Counted from the stretch's first letter, positions 1,820-27,532 are shown. The stretch: 33,843 nucleotides of DNA from an uncultured SAR86 cluster bacterium (GCA_902624765.1 CACNYO010000012.1:1-33843), one strand, 5' to 3'. Notes: generated by a model from the letters alone, not told the origin. Numbers and translations are program-made.

Positions 1820-2632
1820 ATGCCCGAATTACCAGAAGTTGAAACTACGGTCAGAGCCCTTAAACCTAAAATAGAAAAAAGTCTTATAAAGACTTTTGAA
1901 TTAAGAAATAAAAATCTTCGTTGGCCAGTTTCATCGAACCTAGCGAAAATACTTATTTCAAAAAGGGTTACTTCCCTTTCAAGAAGAGCAAAATATTTAA
2001 TTGTTAATTTGGATTCAGAATATCTTTTGATTCATTTAGGCATGTCTGGAAGTCTGAGATATTTATCAAACAACATTTCACCTCAGAAACATGACCATTG
2101 GGATTTATGTTTTGAAAATGGAATGTTACTTAGATATACAGATCCTAGAAGATTCGGCTCGATTCATTACACCAAAGATTTTAAAAATCATTTCCTAATA
2201 AAATCGCTTGGTCCAGAGCCATTGTCAGATGCCTTCGATGAAAACTACCTGTACAAAATAAGTAGAGGAAGAGAAGTTCCGATAAAGACTTTAATCATGA
2301 ATTCTAGAATAGTAGTTGGCATTGGTAATATTTATGCATGCGAAGCTTTATTTGATTCAAGTATAAAACCCACAAAAAAAGCCAAAAGGATTACAAAAAA
2401 CGATTCAAAAGCTTTAGTTGCCGCAATAAAGAAGGTGCTGGAAAAGGCCATAAAAGCTGGGGGAACAACTCTCAGAGATTATTTAAACCCTGATAATTCT
2501 CCAGGATATTTTAAGGTTGAATTACAGGTTTATGGAAGAGGAAAAGAAGACTGCTTAAAATGCGGAAGAATTCTCAAGGAAATCAGGATGAACAACAGAA
2601 GTACAGTTTTTTGTCCTAATTGTCAGCGCTAA
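1820..2632 (+). CDS. mutM: Formamidopyrimidine-DNA glycosylase (Fpg/MutM)
   Basis: Bifunctional base-excision repair enzyme that removes 8-oxoguanine and formamidopyrimidines and nicks the abasic site. The N-terminus [10 protein letters not shown] supplies the catalytic Pro (exposed after Met removal) and Glu. RRAKYLIV carries the conserved Lys near residue 57. The helix-two-turn-helix stretch [15 protein letters not shown] is present, and the C-terminus has the four-Cys zinc finger (CLKCG then CPNCQR). At 270 aa it has normal length. It starts 3 bp after tolC. Its TAA overlaps by 4 bp the TAG of the convergent coaD, so there is no room for a terminator between them. Nothing essential is missing. 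Confidence 0.96.
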
Positions 2633-3108
2633 TTGTTTATTTTCTTATTAAGAGCTTCTAGGGTTACTGGGTCAACAAATCTTTTCACATCCCCGCCCAT
2701 GGTAGCAATTTCCTTAACTAGACTTGATGAAATATAAGAATACTCTTCTTTAGGAGTAAGAAACACGCTCTCAATTTCGGGGCTCATTGCTCTATTCATA
2801 TTTGCTAATTGAAATTCATATTCAAAGTCAGCTACTACCCTTAGACCTCTTATTAAAATATCCGCACCATTTTCTTTAGCGAAGTTCACTAACAAGCCAG
2901 AAAAACCAACCACTTCGACCTTTGGGTCTTCAGCAAATATTTTGTTTCCTATGTCAATCCTTTCTTGAAGAGAAAACATAGGTTTCTTTGAATCACTAGA
3001 TGCAATAGCTATTATTACTGAATCGAAAAGCTTACTTGCTCTTTTTACCAGATCTACATGCCCCATAGTCATAGGATCAAAAGTCCCAGGATATACCGCT
3101 CTTTGCAT
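2629..3108 (-). CDS. coaD: Phosphopantetheine adenylyltransferase CoaD
   Basis: Catalyses the penultimate step of coenzyme A synthesis, adenylating 4'-phosphopantetheine to dephospho-CoA. The 159-aa length is standard. The nucleotidyltransferase signature [17 protein letters not shown] near residues 8-24 contains the T/HxGH motif, [17 protein letters not shown] is the mid-domain, and [13 protein letters not shown] is the C-terminal nucleotide-binding element. It lies 30 bp downstream of hemG on the same strand, so it is probably the last gene of the heme transcription unit. Succinyl-CoA is an ALAS substrate, but co-location may simply reflect operon packing. It converges on mutM with a 4-bp overlap of stop codons. 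Confidence 0.96.
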
Positions 3109-3138: not shown

Positions 3139-3663
3139 TTATCTGAGGTCTGAGAAAAGTTTTGCAAAGAGATCAACTTTATCCCAATCAGTGAATTCAT
3201 GAGTTTTGCTTAGATCCTTTGGACCTTTAGTTAAAAACATAATAAAAAGGATTATATATTTATCTAGGAAGTTGTATTTAGGGTAATCTACCACTCCTGC
3301 AAAAACTTCAATGAGATCAGGCTTAAAGGAAATTTTTTTTAATAATTTTATTAAATACGGATTATTTTTAGGTTTATTTTTTCCTTCCTTTCTTGCAACT
3401 ACATTTACGCTAAAAAAAGCTGTTTTCTTTCTAATCAAAACATCCGAGTATGAATTAAAAAAATCTAATAAATTTTTTCTATATTTACCATATCTTATGC
3501 TTGCTCCGACAAGGATTTTGTCAGCCTTTTCAATGTGGTCATCTCCTAAGTCATCCAGCGAAATTAATTCGTAATCATCCCTAGAATCAAGCTTTGATAA
3601 TATTCTCTCTGAAATTTTTTTTGTATGCCCGTCTACAGAAGAGTAAATAATAAGCCCTTTCAT
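3139..3663 (-). CDS. hemG: Flavodoxin-type protoporphyrinogen IX oxidase HemG
   Basis: Oxidises protoporphyrinogen IX to protoporphyrin IX, the seventh heme step; in E. coli the electrons go to membrane quinones. The protein aligns with E. coli HemG almost end to end: the flavodoxin FMN loop IIYSSVDGHTKKI at the N-terminus, ILVGASIRYGKYRKN, the FFSVNVVARKEGK segment, the hydrophobic insert with LFIMFLTKGP, and FTDWDKVDLFAK near the end. The track start at 3672 adds three residues. The Met at 3663 matches the family N-terminus (MKGLIIYSS) and gives a TGATG stop/start overlap with hemF, implying translational coupling, so 3663 is preferred (174 aa). This HemG type is largely gammaproteobacterial. 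Confidence 0.93.
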   Translation of the reverse strand: MKGLIIYSSVDGHTKKISERILSKLDSRDDYELISLDDLGDDHIEKADKILVGASIRYGKYRKNLLDFFNSYSDVLIRKKTAFFSVNVVARKEGKNKPKNNPYLIKLLKKISFKPDLIEVFAGVVDYPKYNFLDKYIILFIMFLTKGPKDLSKTHEFTDWDKVDLFAKLFSDLR

Positions 3664-4481
3664 CAGTCCCATTTCGCATTTGGTGGCATAGACATCAAAA
3701 TTGCTTCTGTTGATCCTCCAGTTTTCAAGCCAAATAAAGTTCCTCTGTCCCAGATAAGATTAAATTCAACATATCTCCCTCTTTTAATAAGCTGTAGATC
3801 CTTCTCTTCATGGGTCCAAGAAAGATCTTTTTTATTTTTAACAATATTCGTTATTGCAGTGTGAGTTGATTCCCCTACTCTTTTTATAAAATCAAAATCC
3901 TTATTCCAATTATTAGTATTAACGTGATCAAAAAATATTCCTCCAGCACCTCTTGGCTCATCACGATGGCCTAGATAAAAGTATTCATCACAATTCTTTT
4001 TGTATTCTTTGTAAGCATTTTCTTTGAAATTTTTACAAGATTCCTCCATTTGATTATGGAAGAAATTAATACTTTCCTTGTCTTCCAGAGTGGGAGTTAA
4101 ATCAGCGCCTCCTCCAAACCAAGAATCACCAGTAACCAAAAATCTAGTATTGAAATGGAAAGCTGGAATTTTTGGTGAGTTCATATGCGCCACCAAACTT
4201 ATTCCAGTTGCAAAATATTCAGGAGAATTTTCCGTACCCTTAACCTGGTTTCTGAAATCATCTTCAAAGGTACCTGACACAGTTGAAATATTCACACCAA
4301 CTTTTTCAAAGACCTCTCCTTTCATGATACTCATTTCACCACCACCAGAATGTTTATGAGGCCAGGATTTTCTTTCAAAAGAAAATTTATTTTTCTCAAT
4401 TTCCTCAAAAGAATAACAAAACTTGTCTCTTAAACTTCTAAACCATTTTTGAGCGAGATCTTTTTTTTCTTGGATGTCCAC
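3663..4481 (-). CDS. hemF: Oxygen-dependent coproporphyrinogen III oxidase HemF
   Basis: Uses O2 to decarboxylate the two propionates of coproporphyrinogen III, giving protoporphyrinogen IX (sixth step). Family signatures are present in order: SGGGEMSIMKGEVFEKVGVN near residue 45, FGGGADLTPTLEDKESINFFH, GHRDEPRGAGGIFFDHVNTN, GRYVEFNLIWDRGTLFGLKTGGSTEAILMSMPP (the C-terminal signature). At 272 aa it is a little shorter than the ~299-aa E. coli enzyme, with the difference at the termini. It starts 2 bp after hemH and overlaps the hemG start by one base. Reliance on HemF implies aerobic heme synthesis; no oxygen-independent HemN lies in this window. Confidence 0.96.
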   Translation of the reverse strand: MDIQEKKDLAQKWFRSLRDKFCYSFEEIEKNKFSFERKSWPHKHSGGGEMSIMKGEVFEKVGVNISTVSGTFEDDFRNQVKGTENSPEYFATGISLVAHMNSPKIPAFHFNTRFLVTGDSWFGGGADLTPTLEDKESINFFHNQMEESCKNFKENAYKEYKKNCDEYFYLGHRDEPRGAGGIFFDHVNTNNWNKDFDFIKRVGESTHTAITNIVKNKKDLSWTHEEKDLQLIKRGRYVEFNLIWDRGTLFGLKTGGSTEAILMSMPPNAKWD

Positions 4482-4483
4482 TT

Positions 4484-5476
4484 TTAGTTATTTACTAGAC
4501 CAGATAAAAAAGTAATATGATCGTCATCATCGTTTAGGCACTTAATATAATTAAACTTTTTCCCTCCAGCATCTTCAAAATATTCTTTATTTTCAATATC
4601 TATTTCTTGCAATGTTTCTAAGTTATCAACTCCAAAACCAGGAGAAACAACTTGAACGGATGAAATGCCATCCTTAGGAAGAGACTTCATAACATCGCTT
4701 GTGTAGGGTTTTAACCATTCAGAAGGACCAAATCTAGATTGAAACGAAGTAATGTATTCATTCTCATTAAGATCTAGTCTCTCTGCAATTAATCTTGAAG
4801 TCTTTTGACATAGACAATGATATGGATCACCTAATTCAAAATATTTTTTTGGAATAGAGTGATAGGAAAAAACAAGTCTCTCTGGTTTTCCGTGTTTTTC
4901 AAAACTGCCCTGGATTTTTCTTGATAGTAATTCAATCAGCTTCGGATGATCATGATAGCTATTTAGAAATTTGAGACTAGGTACCCATCTCCAAGATTTT
5001 ATTTCATCTGAAACAGCGTCAAATATACTCCCAACAGTGGTAGCTGAATAGTGAGGAAAAAGAGTTATTACTTCAATCTGTCTACAATTTGCATCTTTTA
5101 GCTCATTCAATGCACTTTTAATGCTTGGTTTGCCATATCTCATGCCTAAAGCGACTTCATAGTTATCCGGCAAATTCTCTTTGATTTTTCTTTTTATATT
5201 CAGACAGTTCACCAATAAAGGGGAACCTTCTTCTGTCCAAATGGACTTGTAGAGTTTTGCTGAGTTGAAAGATCTAAAATTTAAGATGAAAAGATTTAAA
5301 ACAAACCACCAAATAATTTTTGGTACTTCAACAATTCTAGGATCTGACAGAAATTCTTTTAAATATTTCCTTACATTTCTAACATTAGGAGAATCTGGCG
5401 TACCTAAATAAGTAATTAGAAGACCTTTTTTAACCTTATCCTCGTGATTGAAATTACCTTCTCCTTTGAATTTCAT
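4484..5476 (-). CDS. hemH: Ferrochelatase HemH
   Basis: Inserts Fe2+ into protoporphyrin IX, the last protoheme step. Conserved blocks are visible: LLITYLGTPDSP near residue 20, the EEGSPLL loop, FPHYSATTVGSIF around 140-152, the metal-site His in LVFSYHSIPKKY (about residue 206), and PGFGVDNLETLQEI with the catalytic Glu. The segments QSRFGPSEWLKPYT and the following PGF block resemble E. coli HemH closely. At 330 aa it is near the usual length; the first ~15 residues are poorly conserved and the start could be slightly internal. The ATG overlaps the hemE stop in an ATGA, indicating coupling. Confidence 0.95.
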   Translation of the reverse strand: MKFKGEGNFNHEDKVKKGLLITYLGTPDSPNVRNVRKYLKEFLSDPRIVEVPKIIWWFVLNLFILNFRSFNSAKLYKSIWTEEGSPLLVNCLNIKRKIKENLPDNYEVALGMRYGKPSIKSALNELKDANCRQIEVITLFPHYSATTVGSIFDAVSDEIKSWRWVPSLKFLNSYHDHPKLIELLSRKIQGSFEKHGKPERLVFSYHSIPKKYFELGDPYHCLCQKTSRLIAERLDLNENEYITSFQSRFGPSEWLKPYTSDVMKSLPKDGISSVQVVSPGFGVDNLETLQEIDIENKEYFEDAGGKKFNYIKCLNDDDDHITFLSGLVNN

Positions 5477-6495
5477 TTGAAAGCCTGTCTTATTTCATTT
5501 ACAAAATGTTTAACGTGAGCTTCGGGTGTTTCTTTGTTAACTCCATGACCCAGACCACAAACCCATCCACTTTTTTCATCATCGTCAAGCAGAAGAAGTT
5601 CCTCAATAAATTCTTCAAGGCATTTATAAAAAAGGTTTGTATCTGCATGGATTTTTGACTCATCAAAATTACCTTGTAAAAAGCCTTTTTTCACCTTTTT
5701 AAGGGTTTCCGTAATTGATATTTTAGAATCTACTCCTATTCCAGCAAAATTATTTTCTTCATCGTTTGTAAAAGTAATTATAGTTTCATAATCAATATTC
5801 TCTTTCGAGTAATATCCCACTTTTCCATTGAATGGTCTTATAAGATGTTCGGAAACCTTCTCTAAATATCCTCTGAAATCTTTCGTCAAAATTTGATGAG
5901 CTGAAGAATCGAAAATCATTACGATTTCAGCTCCAGCTTCTATCTGCATTGCAATATTTTTCTGAAGAAAAGGAATAATTTTATTCTCAAGAAGGTCATT
6001 TATATTCTCATTAAGTTGAATAGAGTTATTTCCTAACTTATTCATTCCCATACCAAAAGCAGTAATCGTCCAGGGGCCGCCGACAAAACCTATCAGTGAT
6101 TTGTCATTTCCAAGCTTGTCTTTAGTTAAGTTCAGGGCTTCGCATTGAAAGTCCATAAATTCAAAATCATTTTTATTCAAAGCTTTTTTCCAATTAGTTT
6201 CTGAAATAAAGTTTCTAAATTTGGGGCCGGGATCAAATACTAATTCCATGCCCATGGCTTGTAGAGGCCATAAAATATCACTGAATAAAATTGCCACATC
6301 AAAATCAAATTCATCAATTGGTCCAATTGCAGTTTCTGCAGCCAAGTGAGGCTTTTTGCATAATTCTTCAAATGAGTATTTAGCTCTCATTGATTGATAG
6401 TGAGAATGATATCTGCCTGCTTGTCTCATAAACCATATAGGCGGACATGATTGAGCTTTTCTATTCAAGGCGTTAACAAATTTTTGGTTTGGCAT
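5473..6495 (-). CDS. hemE: Uroporphyrinogen decarboxylase HemE, divergent
   Basis: Removes four acetate carboxyls from uroporphyrinogen III to give coproporphyrinogen III (fifth step). MRQAGRY (23-29) supplies the two Arg, ILFSDIL (69-75) the catalytic Asp, and GLGHGV near the C-terminus the conserved His. Two blocks differ from the usual family pattern. The segment normally ending in a Tyr (as in GAPWTLATYMVEG) reads GGPWTITAFGMGM, with Phe147 in its place, and the usual FDTWGG-type block reads FDSSAHQI near 195-202. At 340 aa it is close to normal length. Its place in a complete heme operon supports the function despite these changes. It lies 2 bp after hemB and overlaps hemH by 4 bp. Confidence 0.92.
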   Translation of the reverse strand: MPNQKFVNALNRKAQSCPPIWFMRQAGRYHSHYQSMRAKYSFEELCKKPHLAAETAIGPIDEFDFDVAILFSDILWPLQAMGMELVFDPGPKFRNFISETNWKKALNKNDFEFMDFQCEALNLTKDKLGNDKSLIGFVGGPWTITAFGMGMNKLGNNSIQLNENINDLLENKIIPFLQKNIAMQIEAGAEIVMIFDSSAHQILTKDFRGYLEKVSEHLIRPFNGKVGYYSKENIDYETIITFTNDEENNFAGIGVDSKISITETLKKVKKGFLQGNFDESKIHADTNLFYKCLEEFIEELLLLDDDEKSGWVCGLGHGVNKETPEAHVKHFVNEIRQAFK

Positions 6496-6497
6496 TT

Positions 6498-7496
6498 TTA
6501 ACCTAGTTTTTTAGCAGCTTCCTCAGCAGCGTAAGTTAATATGCAATCTGTTCCTGCTCTTTTAAAAGAATATAAACTTTCTATTAATACTTCTTCTTGC
6601 AACCATTTTTTTTCAATAGCTGCCTTAAGCATTGCATATTCTCCACTAACTTGATAAGCAAAAGTAGGTACTCTAAATTTTTCTTTGACTGCTTTGATTA
6701 CATCAAGATAAGGCATCCCAGGTTTGACCATAACTGCATCTGCACCCTCATTTAAGTCCATTTCAACCTCGTGAAGGGCTTCATCAATGTTGTGAGGAGA
6801 CATTTGATAAGAATCTTTATTACTTTTGCCAATGTTCGATGATGATTGGACTGCCTCTCTAAATGGACCATAAAACTTAGAGCTGTATTTTGCAGCGTAA
6901 GACAGAATTATAGTATTAAAGAAACTTTTAGCTTCAAGTTCGTTTCTAATAATTCCGATCCTTCCGTCCATCATATCTGATGGAGCTATGATATCTGCTC
7001 CAGCATCCGCTAATGTCAAGGCTTGTTTTTTCAAGGCCTCTAAGGAAACATCATTGTCTACGTAGCCAGACTCATTCAAAATTCCGTCATGACCATGTGG
7101 TGTATAAGGATCAAGAGCCACGTCAACGATTAAAAGTAAGTCAGGTATTTCCTTTTTTATTGCTTGTACGCATGTGCAAATTAAGTTTTTTCTGTTGAAA
7201 GCCTCTTTTCCATCAAGATCTTTCTTTGAAGGATCTATTACCGGGAATAATGCGACAGCTTTAATCCCAACATCCATTATTTTTTTACAATATTCAATAA
7301 TTCCTTCTTTGGAGTATCTGAAAATTCCTGGCAATGAATCTATTTTTTCTTGAGATTTTATTCCTTCCTTAATGAATATTGGTTGAATCAGATCATCCAC
7401 CGTCAAAGTTGTCTCTGCGGTAATTTTTAAAAGCGACGGATGACTGCGCAATCTACGCAGTCTAGTTTCAGGATATTTTCTGTTCATCTTTGCCAT
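6498..7496 (-). CDS. hemB: Delta-aminolevulinate dehydratase (porphobilinogen synthase) HemB
   Basis: Condenses two 5-aminolevulinate molecules to porphobilinogen (second step). The Schiff-base lysines lie in LSYAAKYSSKFYGPFREA (Lys203) and VMVKPGMPYLD (Lys258). The metal loop reads DVALDPYTPHGHDG (125-138), the Ala/Asp form of Mg-type enzymes and not the three-Cys zinc form of E. coli. The whole sequence, including QVSGEYAM and ESLYSFKRAGTDCILTY, is very close to Pseudomonas-type HemB, so this gene looks native to a gammaproteobacterium. The track start overlaps the end of hemCD by 29 bp; the Met at codon 4 (MNRKYPETRLRR) is an alternative. hemE follows after 2 bp. Confidence 0.96.
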   Translation of the reverse strand: MAKMNRKYPETRLRRLRSHPSLLKITAETTLTVDDLIQPIFIKEGIKSQEKIDSLPGIFRYSKEGIIEYCKKIMDVGIKAVALFPVIDPSKKDLDGKEAFNRKNLICTCVQAIKKEIPDLLLIVDVALDPYTPHGHDGILNESGYVDNDVSLEALKKQALTLADAGADIIAPSDMMDGRIGIIRNELEAKSFFNTIILSYAAKYSSKFYGPFREAVQSSSNIGKSNKDSYQMSPHNIDEALHEVEMDLNEGADAVMVKPGMPYLDVIKAVKEKFRVPTFAYQVSGEYAMLKAAIEKKWLQEEVLIESLYSFKRAGTDCILTYAAEEAAKKLG

Positions 7497-8973
7497 TTAA
7501 AATAAATTTCTTCCAGTCTTCAAAATTCACAAAAGGCAGAACAGAAGAAATTTTGCGGCTAATTATGTCATAGCTTGATCCTAATCCGCATGCATGATGG
7601 GCATCTATGATCTTAGGATATAATTCAAGCGCATATTCAAAAGAACTTGCGCTCATCCAGTAGAAGAATTTCTTATCTGATAAATCAAAACTTAATTCTT
7701 TTGGTATTAATTTGTAAGAAACTAAGTTTTGTATACCTCTTTCTTTTGTGCCTTTATCGTTTGTGAGGTTAATCCATTTTACATTTTCAATCAGTGAACA
7801 AGGTTTCTCATTATTTCTTCCTAAACTATCAGAACTTCCATTCACCCAATAGCCTCTAGAGGCCAGCTTTTTCCATGTCTCTAAACCACTCGTCCATAAA
7901 ATATTCGAATTACAAATTTTTATTCCATCTGGTAAAGCATTTTGTCTAGAAACGAAAATTCCTGTATCTGTAAAATTTTCTAGAATTTCGTTTATACCTT
8001 TCACTGGCTCACGGTCAAAAAAACTTATCTCTTCTTTATTTTTTGGAAAAATATCATCCATCGAAATGTTTTCAGGGCTGTAAACCTTCTGGTATTGTCT
8101 GAAATGTCTTTCCTCAATTTCATCGCCTTGCTCAGTGAGGCCAACAACATTCATGACTTCACCTAACTGAAGTCTTTTTATTGATACTCCGATTTTCTGA
8201 TGACATCCTCCTCCATATTTAGAAAGTACTTCTCTTTCTTTTTCAACCGACTCAAAAATTGATTTTTCATTTATTGACGATGCAATTTCTCTAGCAAATT
8301 CATTGTTTTCAGCTACTTCTATTGCTAGAGCACCCTGCCCAGGCGCACATGGATTAATTGAGTGCGGCAAAATCATCCAAGAGATGAATTCTTTGTGTAA
8401 TTTATAAAATTTAACAAAATTTTTATCCATTGAGAGTCTATCAATTGCTGCTTTGGCAATTACGATCCCATCAACAGAGTCGTCTAAAAACTTTTGAAAT
8501 CTCGTTTGGATATTTCCTCTTATAGGGAGAAATTTACATTCATCAATATCCCAAGGTATCAAATCGTTTAATGTTAAAGATAAATTCCTTTCTCGCCTGG
8601 GAGAAGAAGAATAAAGTTTCAAAGCTTTTTTTTCTGAAGATTTCCTCTTCAAAAACAAGATGTCTCTGCTGTCTGCTCTTGAGATAGTTGAAATAATTTC
8701 TGTGCCTGATTCCATCTCTAAAGGTAAATCCTTCCATGAGTGAACTACAAGATCAGCCTCACCTTGAATCAAAGCCGATCTTAGATCAGAGGTAAAAACG
8801 CCCTGATCAGGCATCTTTGAGAGTGGCGTACTTAGATCTATATCTCCCTTTGTTTCCCTATGTAGATGTTCTATTTCGATATTTGAATAAACATTTTGAA
8901 TTGCAGAAGCAACTAGATTTGCCTGAATCTTAGCCAAGCTACTATTCCTAGAAAGTATTCTTAAAGTTTTCAA
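7468..8973 (-). CDS. hemC: Fused hydroxymethylbilane synthase / uroporphyrinogen-III synthase (HemC-HemD)
   Basis: At 501 aa this is about 190 residues longer than an ordinary HemC. Residues 1 to ~315 are porphobilinogen deaminase: HSWKDLPLE (78-86) with the catalytic Asp, SSSPRRERN with the substrate-binding Arg pair, CAPGQGALAIE, and GGGCHQKIG with the dipyrromethane-cofactor Cys at 257. From ~335 on, GIFVSRQNALP, ILWTSGLETWKKLASRGYWVNG and FYWMSASSFEYALEL followed by a Gly-rich helix resemble the two lobes of uroporphyrinogen-III synthase in shortened form. Fused HemC/HemD proteins are known in other bacteria, Leptospira among them (from memory). No separate hemD is present here. It starts with TTG behind AAAGG and is the first gene of the minus-strand run. 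HemC is certain; the HemD part is a strong inference. Confidence 0.92.
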   Translation of the reverse strand: MKTLRILSRNSSLAKIQANLVASAIQNVYSNIEIEHLHRETKGDIDLSTPLSKMPDQGVFTSDLRSALIQGEADLVVHSWKDLPLEMESGTEIISTISRADSRDILFLKRKSSEKKALKLYSSSPRRERNLSLTLNDLIPWDIDECKFLPIRGNIQTRFQKFLDDSVDGIVIAKAAIDRLSMDKNFVKFYKLHKEFISWMILPHSINPCAPGQGALAIEVAENNEFAREIASSINEKSIFESVEKEREVLSKYGGGCHQKIGVSIKRLQLGEVMNVVGLTEQGDEIEERHFRQYQKVYSPENISMDDIFPKNKEEISFFDREPVKGINEILENFTDTGIFVSRQNALPDGIKICNSNILWTSGLETWKKLASRGYWVNGSSDSLGRNNEKPCSLIENVKWINLTNDKGTKERGIQNLVSYKLIPKELSFDLSDKKFFYWMSASSFEYALELYPKIIDAHHACGLGSSYDIISRKISSVLPFVNFEDWKKFILNGKDEQKIS

Positions 8974-9016
8974 TATAACCTTTTGTTCTTAAACAATACA
9001 TAATGATACCGCAATG

Positions 9017-9043
9017 TTGGAAGCATATGTGATGTGATATAGT
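9017..9043 (+). promoter_or_regulatory. Putative sigma-70 promoter for hemA (extended -10)
   Basis: A -35-like TTGGAA (9017-9022) and an extended -10 TGATATAGT (TATAGT at 9038-9043) lie about 45 bp before the hemA ATG. The 15-bp spacer is short, which the extended -10 could offset. The 115-bp gap must also hold a promoter for the divergent hemCD; I could not pick that one out. Read by eye, not scored. Confidence 0.35.
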
Positions 9044-9088
9044 TGCCTCACATTAAAGATTTGGTATTCAAAATTAGCTAGGTACAGA

Positions 9089-10330
9089 ATGAATTATGAA
9101 AAATTTTTCAGCGATGAGCTAAAGTCCTTAAAGTCTCAGGGGCTTTACAGGAAATTTAGAGAAATAAACCGAGAAAGATCAACATTTCCCAAAGCTCTTG
9201 AAAGAGATGGTGAAAAAGAGAGACAAGTCGAAGTCTGGTGCAGTAATGATTATTTAAACCTTAGTCAACATCCTGCGATAGTTAATGAAACCATTAAAGT
9301 AACTCAAGAACTTGGCACTGGCTCAGGGGGTACAAGAAATATATCTGGAACTTCCAGTTATCATGCCGATCTTGAAAAAACTCTGGCTGAATTACATAAG
9401 AAAGATGCTTCATTAATCTTTCCATCGGCTTATACCGCTAATCAATCAACTCTATGGACTTTATGTAAAAAAATGCAGGGTATTGAAATCTATTCAGATG
9501 AGTTGAATCATGCCTCTATGATCCAAGGAATAAAAAATGCAAATGTAAATGTCCATATTTTCCGACACAATGATGTTGAGCATTTAGAAGAACTTTTAAA
9601 AACTTCAAATGCAAACACTCCAAAAATGATTGTCTTTGAGTCTTTGTACTCCATGGAAGGCCTTAGATCTCCTATAGAAAAGATTATCTGGCTGGCTGAA
9701 AAATATAATGCTCTGACTTATCTTGATGAGGTTCATTCAGTTGGCTTGTATGGTCCCGAAGGTAGAGGAATTGCAGCGGAGCAAGGTGTCTCGGATAAGA
9801 TAGATATAATAAATGGAACTCTATCCAAATCTTTTGGGCAATTAGGAGGATATGTAGCTGCGAATTCAGATATCATTGATTTTGTAAGAAGCTTTGCTCC
9901 TGGATTTATCTTTACCTCCTCAGTGAATCCTTCGATCGTTGCAAGTTCAATTAAAGCTATTAAGCTTGCAAAAAAAGCAGATCATCTTAGAAGAGAAATT
10001 AAATTTAATTCTGATCAAATCAGAGCTGGATTAAGAAATCTTGACATTCCTTTTATCGAGAATGATAGTCACATAATTCCAATACTTATAAAGGATCCTC
10101 TCCTATGTAAGGATGCAGCGAACCTCTTAGTTGATAAGCACGGTATTTACATCCAGCCCGTCTTTTTCCCAACAGTTCCAAAAGGTGATGAAAGATTCAG
10201 AGTAACTATTACTCCAAAACACAATGCCAAAGATATTCAAAACTTTTTAAATGCTATTGACGATGTTTGGACAGAAATGCATCTTGAAAGAGTCGATTCA
10301 GACAAGAAGGTTGTAAATCTAAACCGTTAA
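9089..10330 (+). CDS. hemA: 5-aminolevulinate synthase (ALAS, Shemin/C4 pathway)
   Basis: PLP enzyme of the alpha-oxoamine synthase family that condenses glycine with succinyl-CoA to 5-aminolevulinate, the first committed heme precursor. Identity as ALAS and not a related acyl-CoA synthase rests on [13 protein letters not shown] (76-88), whose Thr82 and Asn84 correspond to the succinyl-CoA-selecting residues of Rhodobacter ALAS, and on Arg21 in [41 protein letters not shown] and the PLP lysine Lys247 in [13 protein letters not shown] are also present. The N-terminus [20 protein letters not shown] fits alphaproteobacterial and mitochondrial ALAS, and 413 aa is full length. It diverges from hemCD and ends 1 bp from the convergent FTR1 gene. 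Most gammaproteobacteria make this precursor from glutamyl-tRNA instead, so transfer or ancient replacement is likely. Confidence 0.93.
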
Positions 10331-13725: not shown

Positions 13726-13841
13726 TAGTTTTGGAAATATCTTTATAACTTTCTCTAAAAAAAAAGAAGAAATTACGAATTAAAAGTCTTGACCTTTTGT
13801 CATTTTATTGTAGGGCGGAATGACCTATATAAATAAGAGGG

Positions 13842-13870
13842 TTGACGCTAATGAAAGAGTTGAATATTCT
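13842..13870 (+). promoter_or_regulatory. Sigma-70 promoter of the second TonB receptor
   Basis: TTGACG (13842-13847), a 17-bp spacer and TATTCT (13865-13870) form a good promoter. It lies inside the N-terminal extension of the track ORF and ends about 33 bp before the preferred ATG at 13904. This supports the internal start and predicts a leader of about 27 nt. Confidence 0.65.
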
Positions 13871-13903
13871 GAAGATTATAGATTATTTTCTAGGGGGAAA
13901 ATT

Positions 13904-16642
13904 ATGAATAAATTCTATTTATTAAGGTTATTTTTAATCTCCCTCCTTTGCATTCCTTTTGTTAATTCTCAGGATGATGATACTGAAGAAGTCGTAGTTA
14001 CAGGTTCACTGATTGCTACCGATAGAGAAGTTTTATCCGTTCCTGTTGATTCCTTCGATCGGGATGATTTTGAATCTGCTGGACAACCAGAAATATCAGA
14101 TCTAGTAAGAAATCTTACTGCTGTATCGGGTACTGTAAATACGTCTGAGCAATTCGTTGAAGGGGGAACAATAACCGGTATTAAAAACGTGAACATTAGA
14201 GGTCTGGGTGTTGCTAGAACTCTTGTTCTTATAAATGGTAAGAGGATGGTTGAAACTGCTGTTGCAACTAACTCGGCTGAGTCACCAGTTGATATTGGTA
14301 ACTTTCCATCAATTGCATTAAAGCGTATTGAATTACTTAAAAACGGTGGTTCAACTGTTTACGGTTCTGATGCGGTTGCTGGTGTGTTCAACATGATCAC
14401 GAGAACTGACTTTGAAGGGTTTGAAATGAATCTTTCAACTACTAATATTAATAACGCTGATCCTGGTTACAACTTTGGTTTCATTTATGGAAATCAAAAC
14501 GGTGATAACAGATTCACTATTTCTTATGAATACGAAGAAATTGGCCGTTTGATGAACATTGATCTTGGACTAGTAGATTGGTCTACGCCTGCAACTTGGT
14601 CTTTAGGATTTTCTTCTTTCGGTATGCCTGGAACTTGGCATCCTCTTGCTGGTGGTAGTGCCCAAGGTGAAAATGCCATTATGGATCCTACTTGTGGTAT
14701 GAGTGTTCCTGTTGCTGCATCTAAGACAAAAGGTAAATCAGTTTCAGTTCCTATAACAGGCAATCCTCATTCAAAATGTGGATATAACTATGTGCCATTT
14801 TCAAACACAATTGATCCAACGACGAGGAACAAACTTTATGTAACTGCAGAGTCAGATATTAATGAAGATACCATGTTGTATTTTGAGTATCTGCATGCTG
14901 GATTGGACACTACATACACTGGTTCGCCTTCTTATCCGCCAACTGCTGCTGGTTACTACTTAGTGGTTCCTAGTCATAACCCAGGTTTTCAAGAAATTGA
15001 AAGAGCTACTGGTCAAGACATGGGGGCTGCTGCTTTAACTTGGTTAAGAGCTAGAGCGGTTGAAGGTCCTGGAATGGAAAGACCTAACTATCACGATTCA
15101 GACAGAATCGTCACTGGAATAAAAACTGATATTACTGATTCAGTTTCCTTTGATGCCAGCATAACTTACGGTGCTACAGAATGGAGTAATGCTTGGGGTG
15201 ATGTTTTAACCGATAGGTTTAATATGGCTTTAAACGGTATCGGTGGTGAAGATTGTAGAGATCCTGCAACTGGTAATTTTTATGAAATTGGAACCGATGC
15301 TGCTTTAGCCGCTGCTGGAACTGGTAATTGTTATTACTACAACCCGGTTGGAGCTTCTATTGGAGCCAGCCCATCTGATCCTTATTACAACAATCCAGCT
15401 GCTTGGGACTTCTTCTGGGGAGGCCCTGAAGCTGAAGAGAAAAAATCTCTAACAGTTGGTGAATTTGTTTTCTCTGGTTTCGGAGCAAACGATGTTGGTT
15501 GGGCGGTTGGAGCTCAATTTAGAAAGTTCTATGGTTTCTATAGAGCTGCCGGTGATAACAGATGTCCGGATAATGGAAAATGTAACACCGTCTTCCATTT
15601 CTTGACTATGGATAAGACTGAAAGAATTGATAACGAAGTTACTTCTTTATTTGGTGAAGTAAATATCCCAGCTGGAGACAACTTTGAAATTCAACTTGGT
15701 GCAAGGTACATTGACTATGAACTTGATCAGGTTACAAAACCAAGGATGTCTTTCATATGGGATGCTACAGACATATTCAGTCTAAGATTCTCTTACGAGC
15801 AAACTTATAGAACTCCAGTTCTTGCAAGTCAGCCTACTGAATCTTTAGAAAGGTATGCGCCTCTTGGTGAATATGTAACAGTTGTAACACCTGTGCCTTC
15901 AACCTTAGAACCAGAGCAATCTGACAACATGAACATTGGTTTTATTATCAGACCAACTGATCGTAGCCAATTAACTTTTGATTACTTCAACCTTGCGTTT
16001 ACAAATGGTTTTGCGAGAACAGCCTCAACAGCTCCTTCTGCAAGAATCATTTACAACACCCCTGGTGATGACACTAGTGGTGTAGCAAGAATTGAAACTG
16101 ACTTCATCAACGGAGATGATGTTGATGTTTCAGGATTAGATTTTGAAGGTTCCGTTGGATTTGATTCTGGAAGAGCTGTAATGCAATTCTCTTACGGTGG
16201 TACTTACATGACTCAGTACGACGTTGCTGGTGGTATTGGTGCCTTAGCAGGAGGAACGTATGATGCTTTGGGTAAATTCAACACTAGATCATCTGTATCG
16301 CCTATCGTTTTGAGATCATTGCCTGAACTGCAATTATTCTTAGGGCTTGGAATAGATATCGACATTCACAGAATGAATATTTATCTAAGACACGTAAGTG
16401 AATACGATGTTCCTGATACTATAACTGCTGCCTACAGCTTTATTGATAAAATTGATTCTATGAATACTTTAGATTTCAATTACTCAGTTAATTTAGCTGA
16501 TGACAGAGTTACTTTAAACATAAGTGCATACAACTTACTTGATGAGAAGCCTCCTTTAGCTCCATCTGAGTTAGGTTATGATGCTTATACACATTCTCCT
16601 GTGGGAAGAGTTCTGAAAGCTGGTATCCAGTACAGATTCTAA
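13904..16642 (+). CDS. TonB-dependent receptor, substrate unknown
   Basis: Large outer-membrane TonB-gated receptor, 912 aa from the preferred start. The track start (13820) includes a promoter. The ATG at 13904 follows a strong AGGGGG Shine-Dalgarno sequence and opens with a signal peptide, MNKFYLLRLFLISLLCIPFVNS. Directly after it comes the TonB-box-like EEVVVTGSLIATDR, then the plug with VNIRGLGVARTLVLINGKRM and IELLKNGGSTVYGSDAVAGV, and a barrel ending in LKAGIQYRF. The EEVVVTGS start and long Gly/Asn-rich loops resemble receptors of marine and caulobacter-type bacteria used for large organic substrates, not the Fiu group. It lies divergent from the siderophore receptor, but the Fur boxes are ~120 bp upstream of its promoter, so Fur control is doubtful. 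A strong terminator follows. Confidence 0.9.
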   Translation: MNKFYLLRLFLISLLCIPFVNSQDDDTEEVVVTGSLIATDREVLSVPVDSFDRDDFESAGQPEISDLVRNLTAVSGTVNTSEQFVEGGTITGIKNVNIRGLGVARTLVLINGKRMVETAVATNSAESPVDIGNFPSIALKRIELLKNGGSTVYGSDAVAGVFNMITRTDFEGFEMNLSTTNINNADPGYNFGFIYGNQNGDNRFTISYEYEEIGRLMNIDLGLVDWSTPATWSLGFSSFGMPGTWHPLAGGSAQGENAIMDPTCGMSVPVAASKTKGKSVSVPITGNPHSKCGYNYVPFSNTIDPTTRNKLYVTAESDINEDTMLYFEYLHAGLDTTYTGSPSYPPTAAGYYLVVPSHNPGFQEIERATGQDMGAAALTWLRARAVEGPGMERPNYHDSDRIVTGIKTDITDSVSFDASITYGATEWSNAWGDVLTDRFNMALNGIGGEDCRDPATGNFYEIGTDAALAAAGTGNCYYYNPVGASIGASPSDPYYNNPAAWDFFWGGPEAEEKKSLTVGEFVFSGFGANDVGWAVGAQFRKFYGFYRAAGDNRCPDNGKCNTVFHFLTMDKTERIDNEVTSLFGEVNIPAGDNFEIQLGARYIDYELDQVTKPRMSFIWDATDIFSLRFSYEQTYRTPVLASQPTESLERYAPLGEYVTVVTPVPSTLEPEQSDNMNIGFIIRPTDRSQLTFDYFNLAFTNGFARTASTAPSARIIYNTPGDDTSGVARIETDFINGDDVDVSGLDFEGSVGFDSGRAVMQFSYGGTYMTQYDVAGGIGALAGGTYDALGKFNTRSSVSPIVLRSLPELQLFLGLGIDIDIHRMNIYLRHVSEYDVPDTITAAYSFIDKIDSMNTLDFNYSVNLADDRVTLNISAYNLLDEKPPLAPSELGYDAYTHSPVGRVLKAGIQYRF

Positions 16643-26004: not shown

Positions 26005-26667
26005 ATGTCTAAAAATGTCCTTATCAGTGTCTCAAACAAAGATGGGATAATTGATTTTGCTAAAAATCTTATTTCTCTGGGATACAAAATTATTTCAACA
26101 GGGGGAACTTACCAGCTGCTAAAAGAAAATAATGTTGATGCTACTGAAGTTTCAGAACATACAGGATTTCCAGAAATAATGGATGGCAGAATCAAAACCT
26201 TACATCCCAAAATTCATGCAGGGATTCTTTCTCGAAGAAAAATTGATAAAAAAATCATAAAAGAACACAGCATCGATGAAATCGATATCGTGGTAGTGAA
26301 CCTTTATCCTTTTTATTCAACTGCAAAAGATCCAAATAGTACCGAAGCAGAAATAATTGAGAAAATTGATATAGGCGGACCAACGATGTTAAGAGCAGCT
26401 GCAAAAAATCATAAGCACGTTACCACAATTGTTGATCCTAATGATTATGATCTAGTTACAAAGGAACTCAAAAAAAGTAAAACCATTTCAAATTCTCTGA
26501 AAAGGCAATTGGCAATTAAAGTTTTTTCACATACAGCAAATTATGATTTAGAGATTTCAAACTATTTTAATGGTGATCAGTTTGAAGAGAATCTTCTTTT
26601 AAGTTATGAAAAGACGGAAAGTTTAAGATATGGAGAAAATCCTCATCAGACAGCTTCTTTTTTTTAA
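26005..26667 (+). CDS. purH: PurH, N-terminal fragment (IMP cyclohydrolase domain), ends at a frameshift
   Basis: Bifunctional purine enzyme for the last two steps to IMP. This fragment holds the whole MGS-like cyclohydrolase domain (VLISVSNKDGIIDFAKNLIS, IISTGGTYQLLKEN, MDGRIKTLHPKIHAGIL, IDIGGPTMLRAAAKNH) and the start of the AICAR transformylase domain (SLRYGENPHQTASFF). It stops at TAA inside a run of eight T (26658-26665). With seven T the frame continues directly into the next ORF, giving about 508 aa, a normal PurH length. It is either a homopolymer sequencing error, a true frameshift, or a gene rescued by slippage on the T-tract. The essential role of PurH argues against simple loss. 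Confidence 0.93.
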   Translation: MSKNVLISVSNKDGIIDFAKNLISLGYKIISTGGTYQLLKENNVDATEVSEHTGFPEIMDGRIKTLHPKIHAGILSRRKIDKKIIKEHSIDEIDIVVVNLYPFYSTAKDPNSTEAEIIEKIDIGGPTMLRAAAKNHKHVTTIVDPNDYDLVTKELKKSKTISNSLKRQLAIKVFSHTANYDLEISNYFNGDQFEENLLLSYEKTESLRYGENPHQTASFF

Positions 26668-27532
26668 ACATAAATTTTCAAAGCCTTATGGGATATCCTC
26701 ATCCATTCTCCATCAAGGCAAAGAAATGTCTTATAACAACATAGCAGATACAGATACTGCTATCGATTGCGTATGTAATTTTGTTGAACCTACTTGTGTC
26801 ATTGTAAAACATGCCAATCCTTGTGGAGTATCATCAAGAAAAAATATATTAGATGCTTATCAAAGTGCATTTGAGAGTGATCCAACCTCAGCTTTCGGAG
26901 GGATTATTGCTTTCAATGAAAAGGTTTCTGACGAAGTTGCAAAGAAATTGATTGGTAATCAATTTCTTGAGGTAGTCGCTGCTCCAGCTTACTCAGACGA
27001 ATCTCTGAAAATTTTTATGGCTAAACCTAATGTAAGGGTTCTCTCATTCGAGCCAAAAATAAATGATAGAAATAAAATTTTATCTGTATCCGGGGGCCTT
27101 CTTATTCAATCAGCTGATAACAAAATAATTGCCGAAGATGATTTAGAAGTTGTAACAAAAAGAGAACCAAATAAAGGTGAAATACAAAATGCTTTGTTTG
27201 CGTGGAAAGTATGTAAATATGTCAAATCTAATGCAATTGTGTTTGCTGCAAATAAGCAAACATTAGGAATTGGTGCAGGTCAAATGAGTAGAATAGATAG
27301 CGGAAAAATTGCTGCCTCAAAAGCTAAAGAATTTGAATTCTCATTAAATGGAGCATCAATGGCATCTGATGCATTTTTTCCTTTTAGAGACAATGTCGAT
27401 AATGCTCATGAACTAGGCATAAAGTGCATTATTCAACCTGGAGGTTCAATTAAAGACGAAGAAGTCATTCAAGCTGCTAATGAAGCGGACATGAGTATGT
27501 TATTCACAAAGGTTAGACATTTCAGGCATTAG
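26630..27532 (+). CDS. purH: PurH, C-terminal fragment (AICAR transformylase domain)
   Basis: This is the second part of purH in another frame. Homology begins at FFKHKFSKPYGISSS after the T-run; the first ~10 track residues (MEKILIRQLL) are out-of-frame reading of the upstream fragment, so the listed start is not a genuine start. Transformylase motifs include GKEMSYNNIADTDTAIDCV, VIVKHANPCGVSS, SDPTSAFGGIIAFNEKV, TLGIGAGQMSRIDS and SMASDAFFPFRDNVDNAHELG, with the expected RHFRH end. The two parts together would be one full-length enzyme. purD follows directly with no gap. Confidence 0.92.
   Translation: MEKILIRQLLFFKHKFSKPYGISSSILHQGKEMSYNNIADTDTAIDCVCNFVEPTCVIVKHANPCGVSSRKNILDAYQSAFESDPTSAFGGIIAFNEKVSDEVAKKLIGNQFLEVVAAPAYSDESLKIFMAKPNVRVLSFEPKINDRNKILSVSGGLLIQSADNKIIAEDDLEVVTKREPNKGEIQNALFAWKVCKYVKSNAIVFAANKQTLGIGAGQMSRIDSGKIAASKAKEFEFSLNGASMASDAFFPFRDNVDNAHELGIKCIIQPGGSIKDEEVIQAANEADMSMLFTKVRHFRH

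Follow-up and report, generated by a model that had tools for sequence, protein, structure and literature searches.

Comparison with described heme gene clusters

The closest described counterpart of the heme biosynthesis locus reported here is the hem operon of Leptospira (hemACBLENG with HemKR, and hemH nearby), where nearly the whole pathway lies in one locus and where a bifunctional HemCD protein fuses HemC with a uroporphyrinogen-III synthase (U3S) (PMC11426443). Dual HMBS and U3S activity of Leptospira HemCD is reported in PMC8698207, which cites Guegan 2003 for it, and in PMC11426443. The same kind of fusion was found in an uncultured SAR86 cluster bacterium, on a stretch of 33,843 nucleotides which was analysed as a whole and is called the window (GCA_902624765.1, CACNYO010000012.1:1-33843). 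Here, a minus-strand run of hemC-X, hemB, hemE, hemH, hemF and hemG, where X denotes the C-terminal domain of the fusion, and a divergent gene for 5-aminolevulinate synthase (ALAS) all lie within positions 3139-10330 (about 7 kb). Leptospira differs from SAR86 in using the C5 route (a GluTR-like protein and HemL), the oxygen-independent HemN, a longer oxidase named HemG and an embedded two-component system, while SAR86 uses the divergent ALAS, HemF, and HemG or HemJ.

Related clusters occur in other bacteria. In Bdellovibrionota/Oligoflexia, HemC-X also adjoins other hem genes, but these clusters use the C5 route and have the order GluTR-hemC-X-(hemB)-hemL-two genes-hemE. A divergent ALAS with a hemCX-hemE-hemF-hemJ core is common to SAR86, OCS116/PS1 (Alphaproteobacteria) and TMED46/Marinimicrobia. 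The OCS116/PS1 arrangement is ftr1, TonB receptor, and ALAS divergent from hemC-X, hemE, hemF and hemJ, without hemB and hemH; in TMED46/Marinimicrobia, ALAS is divergent from hemC-X, hemE, hemH, hemF, hemJ and hemB, so that hemB stands at the far end.

A compact Shemin-route locus in SAR86

We consider it quite likely that the locus is a Shemin-route HemCD cassette which is exchangeable across bacterial classes. We also favour, with less confidence, a wider reading, namely that such a self-contained cassette has spread among SAR86, OCS116/PS1 and Marinimicrobia-like bacteria, replacing the C5 route and the canonical hemD within one order, and that a wide unmodelled family, extending to Leptospira, Bdellovibrionota and other gammaproteobacteria, includes its HemD domain. 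The features of the locus and its neighbours are as follows.

9089..10330, plus strand: hemA/alaS, ALAS (Shemin/C4 route), step 1; TIGR01821 555.5 bits, over the cut-off of 338.55
8974..9088, no strand: divergent promoter region common to ALAS and hemC-X, 115 bp, from open reading frame (ORF) coordinates
7468..8973, minus strand: hemCD fusion, steps 3 and 4, with HemC at amino acids 1 to ~300 and a predicted cryptic U3S at amino acids ~330-501; TIGR00212 over amino acids 4-284, and identity to Leptospira HemCD
7471..7986, minus strand: C-terminal X domain, putative cryptic HemD/U3S; AlphaFold model and Foldseek
6498..7496, minus strand: hemB, porphobilinogen synthase, step 2; NF006762 461 bits
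5473..6495, minus strand: hemE, uroporphyrinogen decarboxylase, step 5; PF01208 236.8 bits, TIGR01464 223.8 bits
4484..5476, minus strand: hemH, ferrochelatase, step 8; TIGR00109 304 bits, over cut-off
3663..4481, minus strand: hemF, oxygen-dependent coproporphyrinogen oxidase, step 6; NF003727 357.7 bits, over cut-off
3139..3672, minus strand: hemG, menaquinone-dependent protoporphyrinogen IX dehydrogenase, step 7; NF008316 171.8 bits, over cut-off
2629..3108, minus strand: coaD, flanking gene; TIGR01510
10332..11240, minus strand: ftr1/efeU-like iron permease, cassette companion; PF03239
11547..13697, minus strand: TonB-dependent receptor, cassette companion, named from sequence, with a putative role in iron/siderophore uptake

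The gene list and coordinates of the original prediction, which had been made from the DNA alone, are correct, as curated models place all seven hem genes at these positions. All hem products score over their NCBIfam cut-offs except HemE (TIGR01464 223.8 versus 302.95 bits), which passes the Pfam URO-D cut-off. ORF coordinates also agree with the predicted tight six-gene run divergent from hemA: gaps of 2 bp separate hemB from hemE and hemH from hemF, while overlaps amount to 29 bp for hemC/hemB with the listed ATG, 4 bp for hemE/hemH and 10 bp for hemF/hemG. The hemB start is likely at position 7487, judging from the length of 329 amino acids in congeners. On the same strand, coaD follows hemG after 30 bp; it adjoins the hem run only in the genus of the window and lies outside the cassette in other genera. 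Shuffled sequence contained more promoter-like sites than the real one, and the number of terminator-like sites was close to that expected by chance.

Catalytic motifs are intact. ALAS keeps NGTLSKSFG with the catalytic lysine, and HemC keeps GGGCH, HSWKDLP, SSPRR and RGNIQTR (dipyrromethane cofactor cysteine, substrate Arg/Asp). The motifs RQAGRY and FSDI are present in HemE, HRDEPRG in HemF and SYHSIP in HemH. We thus propose that the locus, the only heme set detected in this genome, works as a Shemin-route pathway and is probably co-transcribed along its minus-strand run. ALAS would convert glycine and succinyl-CoA to 5-aminolevulinate, which HemB would convert to porphobilinogen. A single HemCD polypeptide would then polymerise porphobilinogen and close the ring to uroporphyrinogen III via a diverged U3S domain, and HemE, HemF, HemG and HemH would complete protoheme.

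A probable cryptic HemD domain fused to HemC

HemC is 501 amino acids long, but HemC models cover only residues 4-284, leaving about 170 C-terminal residues. This X domain has no Pfam match (HEM4 included, with E up to 10) and no match to NCBIfam or to PDB sequences. It is conserved in the alignment of fusions from SAR86 families f1 and f2, where Trp, Gly, Tyr and His residues occur at invariant sites. Its AlphaFold (AF2) model is confident (pLDDT 85.8), and a Foldseek comparison of this model with the PDB gave only uroporphyrinogen-III synthases at ranks 1-8 (probability up to 1.00, best E 0.002). One more U3S, the ninth, appears at rank 10, and the unrelated folds that come after the U3S matches do not exceed a probability of about 0.2. 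The full-length HemCD model (pLDDT 88.9, pTM 0.89) matches HMBS in the PDB.

With such modest Foldseek E-values, the fold alone is only suggestive. The decisive link is full-length identity to HemCD from Leptospira interrogans (37% over 97% of the length, BLASTP E 3e-109), which is annotated as bifunctional porphobilinogen deaminase/uroporphyrinogen synthase. The Leptospira C-terminal domain is likewise recognised by neither Pfam HEM4 nor NCBIfam. The HemCD fusion is thus of an already known kind that is missed by curated models. The HemD-like domain that had been proposed for hemC is backed by both fold and identity, and we regard the C-terminus as a real but cryptic HemD, probably a strongly diverged U3S of the Leptospira type. 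Compared to canonical HemD (Pfam HEM4), predicted fold and role are alike, but the domain is shorter, is fused to HemC, and has no detectable sequence or profile similarity. Recoding was also considered and was rejected, as the single TAG reported inside same-genus matches is a genuine stop codon that merely comes earlier, close to the C-terminus.

Distribution of the fusion and of the two routes

Among 199 genomes of the SAR86 order, 54 carry a full-length HemC-X and 110 carry HEM4 over cut-off, and there is no overlap between the two sets (this count and those that follow for HEM4 are uncorrected for kinship). In a second gammaproteobacterial order, HEM4 is absent from 17 of 22 genomes with X and present in 18 of 20 without X (Fisher p 1.2e-5). 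HEM4 over cut-off is also absent from 26 of the 32 genomes behind the named loci. In the scan of named genomes, X was found in SAR86, OCS116 and PS1, TMED46, one Marinimicrobia single cell, Bdellovibrionota and several other gammaproteobacteria. As X is covered by none of the Pfam and NCBIfam models used, such genomes would be counted among those without hemD. The unmodelled family thus offers an explanation for this pathway hole, and it can be converted into a profile.

The distribution also reveals a switch of route within the order. Among 24 SAR86 genomes tested, ALAS over cut-off occurs only in families f1 and f2, and GluTR only in f3 and f4. The former lack canonical hemD and GluTR and use ALAS and HemCD, while the latter have GluTR and a separate HEM4-type hemD. 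It seems that in two SAR86 families the cassette core replaces the C5 route and canonical hemD of the other two, which would represent a C4/C5 switch within a single order, combined with genes held in common between classes.

SAR86 bacteria are among the abundant uncultured bacteria of the surface ocean, and heme self-sufficiency decides dependence among organisms for iron and cofactors. HemB is absent from three genomes of the order, G021 (genus g12), G029 (g13) and G008 (f4); ALAS and GluTR are likewise missing from G021 and G029, and G008 retains GluTR. These may be heme auxotrophs, real ones in the case of g12 and g13, or incomplete bins.

Two other observations concern the fusion itself. 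In one gammaproteobacterial family (L086:15439-16989, L088-L107), most of the HemC-X proteins read lack the GGCH cofactor cysteine motif, which L099 retains. A contig labelled Saprospiraceae codes for ALAS, HemC and X in one ORF of 908 amino acids (L131:3377-6103), adjoining hemB and siroheme/sulfite reductase-like genes, and the same genome also has HEM4.

Gene order within SAR86 and sharing across classes

When gene order was compared in related genomes, as had been suggested with the original prediction, it was found to be kept in all 35 further f1/f2 loci, with two exceptions: in f2 the run does not include hemH, which lies outside it, and one locus is truncated by a contig edge. This is far beyond chance. 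A single compact unit with all eight steps, as predicted, thus exists in family f1 but not in f2. The gap between hemC and the divergent ALAS is also kept, at 62-155 bp in the relatives. A Fur-box-like palindrome (such as ATGAGAATNATTCTTA) was seen in the f2 hemC-ALAS promoter (L055-L082) and is not evident in the genus of the window. The oxidase slot is variable (window 3139-3672; L043-L082), being occupied by HemG in 16 and by HemJ (PF03653 over cut-off, TIGR00701) in 19 SAR86 loci. On the HemCX tree of the 35 loci this corresponds to at least 5 switches, a count which recombining genes could inflate.

Beyond SAR86, the ftr1 permease and the TonB receptor beside the OCS116/PS1 cassette are 59-61% and 59-60% identical to their window counterparts. 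SAR86 f1/f2 stands next to OCS116/PS1 in the trees for ALAS (support 97/93), HemC-X (93/92), HemE (SH-aLRT 92) and HemF. The ALAS of SAR86, OCS116/PS1 and TMED46-type bacteria is the same enzyme as ordinary alphaproteobacterial hemA, but forms a clade apart from 15 such sequences. The likeness of SAR86 ALAS, HemCD, HemE and HemF to those from OCS116/PS1 is best read as an ancient transfer, as judged from these trees and from the TonB receptor and Ftr1 that accompany the OCS116/PS1 cassette. In the HemB tree, the window protein joins, with moderate support, the HemB proteins from other SAR86 families, so that hemB is probably native to SAR86 and was kept and built into the run.

The core (ALAS, hemCD, hemE, hemF, the oxidase slot and the iron uptake pair) is probably an exchangeable block common to SAR86 and OCS116/PS1, with another version in TMED46/Marinimicrobia. 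The idea that the cassette can move as a whole is supported in part, by this common core and the concordant trees; it does not extend to the native-looking hemB, the variable hemH and the HemG/HemJ slot. No mobility gene was recognised by eye in the ORF lists of the window, a model search aimed at such genes not being part of the analysis. Full-length HemC-X was not found in phage records, and in the plasmid collection only on the second Leptospira replicon. No viral contig with the fusion was found by an exact short-peptide scan, which is sensitive to close relatives only. Old transfer with homologous recombination is thus likelier than an active element. One contig of a metagenome-assembled genome (L191), labelled Gammaproteobacteria, combines OCS116/PS1-like ALAS and hemC-X with HemG and a hemF that falls inside SAR86 f1 (SH-aLRT 82); it may be a cross-class mosaic or a case of mis-binning.

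As far as could be checked, the pairing of HemCD with ALAS in a cross-class marine cassette, the route switch in SAR86 and the breadth of the unmodelled HemD family are new. No paper joining SAR86 with heme biosynthesis or with 5-aminolevulinate was found in a partial open-access literature; this is weak evidence of novelty, as most subscription papers lie outside it.

Alternative explanations

Several observations weigh against our interpretation, in part or as a whole. The TM-scores over the nine U3S matches are moderate (0.41-0.60), no Foldseek E-value is below 0.001, and a comparison of X with HEM4 of SAR86 relatives by hhalign gave nothing (probability 0.9%). Together with the missing Pfam and PDB sequence matches, these would fit an extension of HemC that has a structural or regulatory role, uroporphyrinogen III being supplied by another enzyme. 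We consider this improbable, as the top fold matches are all U3S, the same domain in Leptospira HemCD is reported to be bifunctional, X adjoins hem genes in the loci read, and X and HEM4 almost exclude each other across genomes. This exclusion is not complete outside SAR86, where 5 of 22 and 6 of 32 (over cut-off) genomes with X also carry HEM4. In the SAR86 genome itself, which is 71.6% complete, ALAS, HemB and HemC each occur once, and no match to HEM4 or GluTR was found; this completeness, and a copy search which covered these five families only, weaken the case for a self-contained pathway. The argument for transfer is in turn weakened by trees which sample few lineages and give no transfer direction. 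The cluster might instead have been inherited vertically from the SAR86 ancestor and lost in f3 and f4, OCS116/PS1 having taken it from SAR86. SAR86 f1/f2 is monophyletic in the ALAS, HemCX and HemE trees, and the GC content of the hem genes is near the window average, with no sign of foreign origin. However, f3 and f4 have GluTR together with a separate HEM4-type hemD, HEM4 is also usual in the sampled gammaproteobacteria outside the order, and the closest HemCD relatives are spread across Leptospira, Bdellovibrionota and TMED46. We thus regard vertical inheritance as the less likely, though a serious, alternative to acquisition of an exchangeable cassette by f1/f2.

A further concern, raised already with the original prediction, is that the locus might be a chimeric assembly of unrelated pieces. 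The assembly consists of 37 contigs, and the block from hemC-X to hemF (window 3672-8973, about 3.7-9.0 kb) is only 62-83% identical to four congeners, versus 79-90% for most of the left flank, while the four congeners are 85-99% identical among themselves across the block. The genes of the block still group with the genus of the window, though, and the same order is found in the 35 other loci, whose contigs are publicly named SAR86 cluster and many of which stem from single-cell style assemblies (AG-/AH-). A chimera is thus very improbable. The simplest reading of the divergent block, based on these identities, is an allele replacement from an unsampled relative. The adjacent hemG is 95-96% identical to that of congener G023, and the other three congeners have HemJ in this slot.

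Other observations in the window

A purH-like frame at positions 26005-27532 consists of two overlapping ORFs (220 and 300 amino acids), possibly due to a frameshift or an assembly error. A second TonB-receptor gene at positions 13820-16642 is common to congeners G015 and G023, while G011 and G067 have a very different one (about 50% DNA identity).

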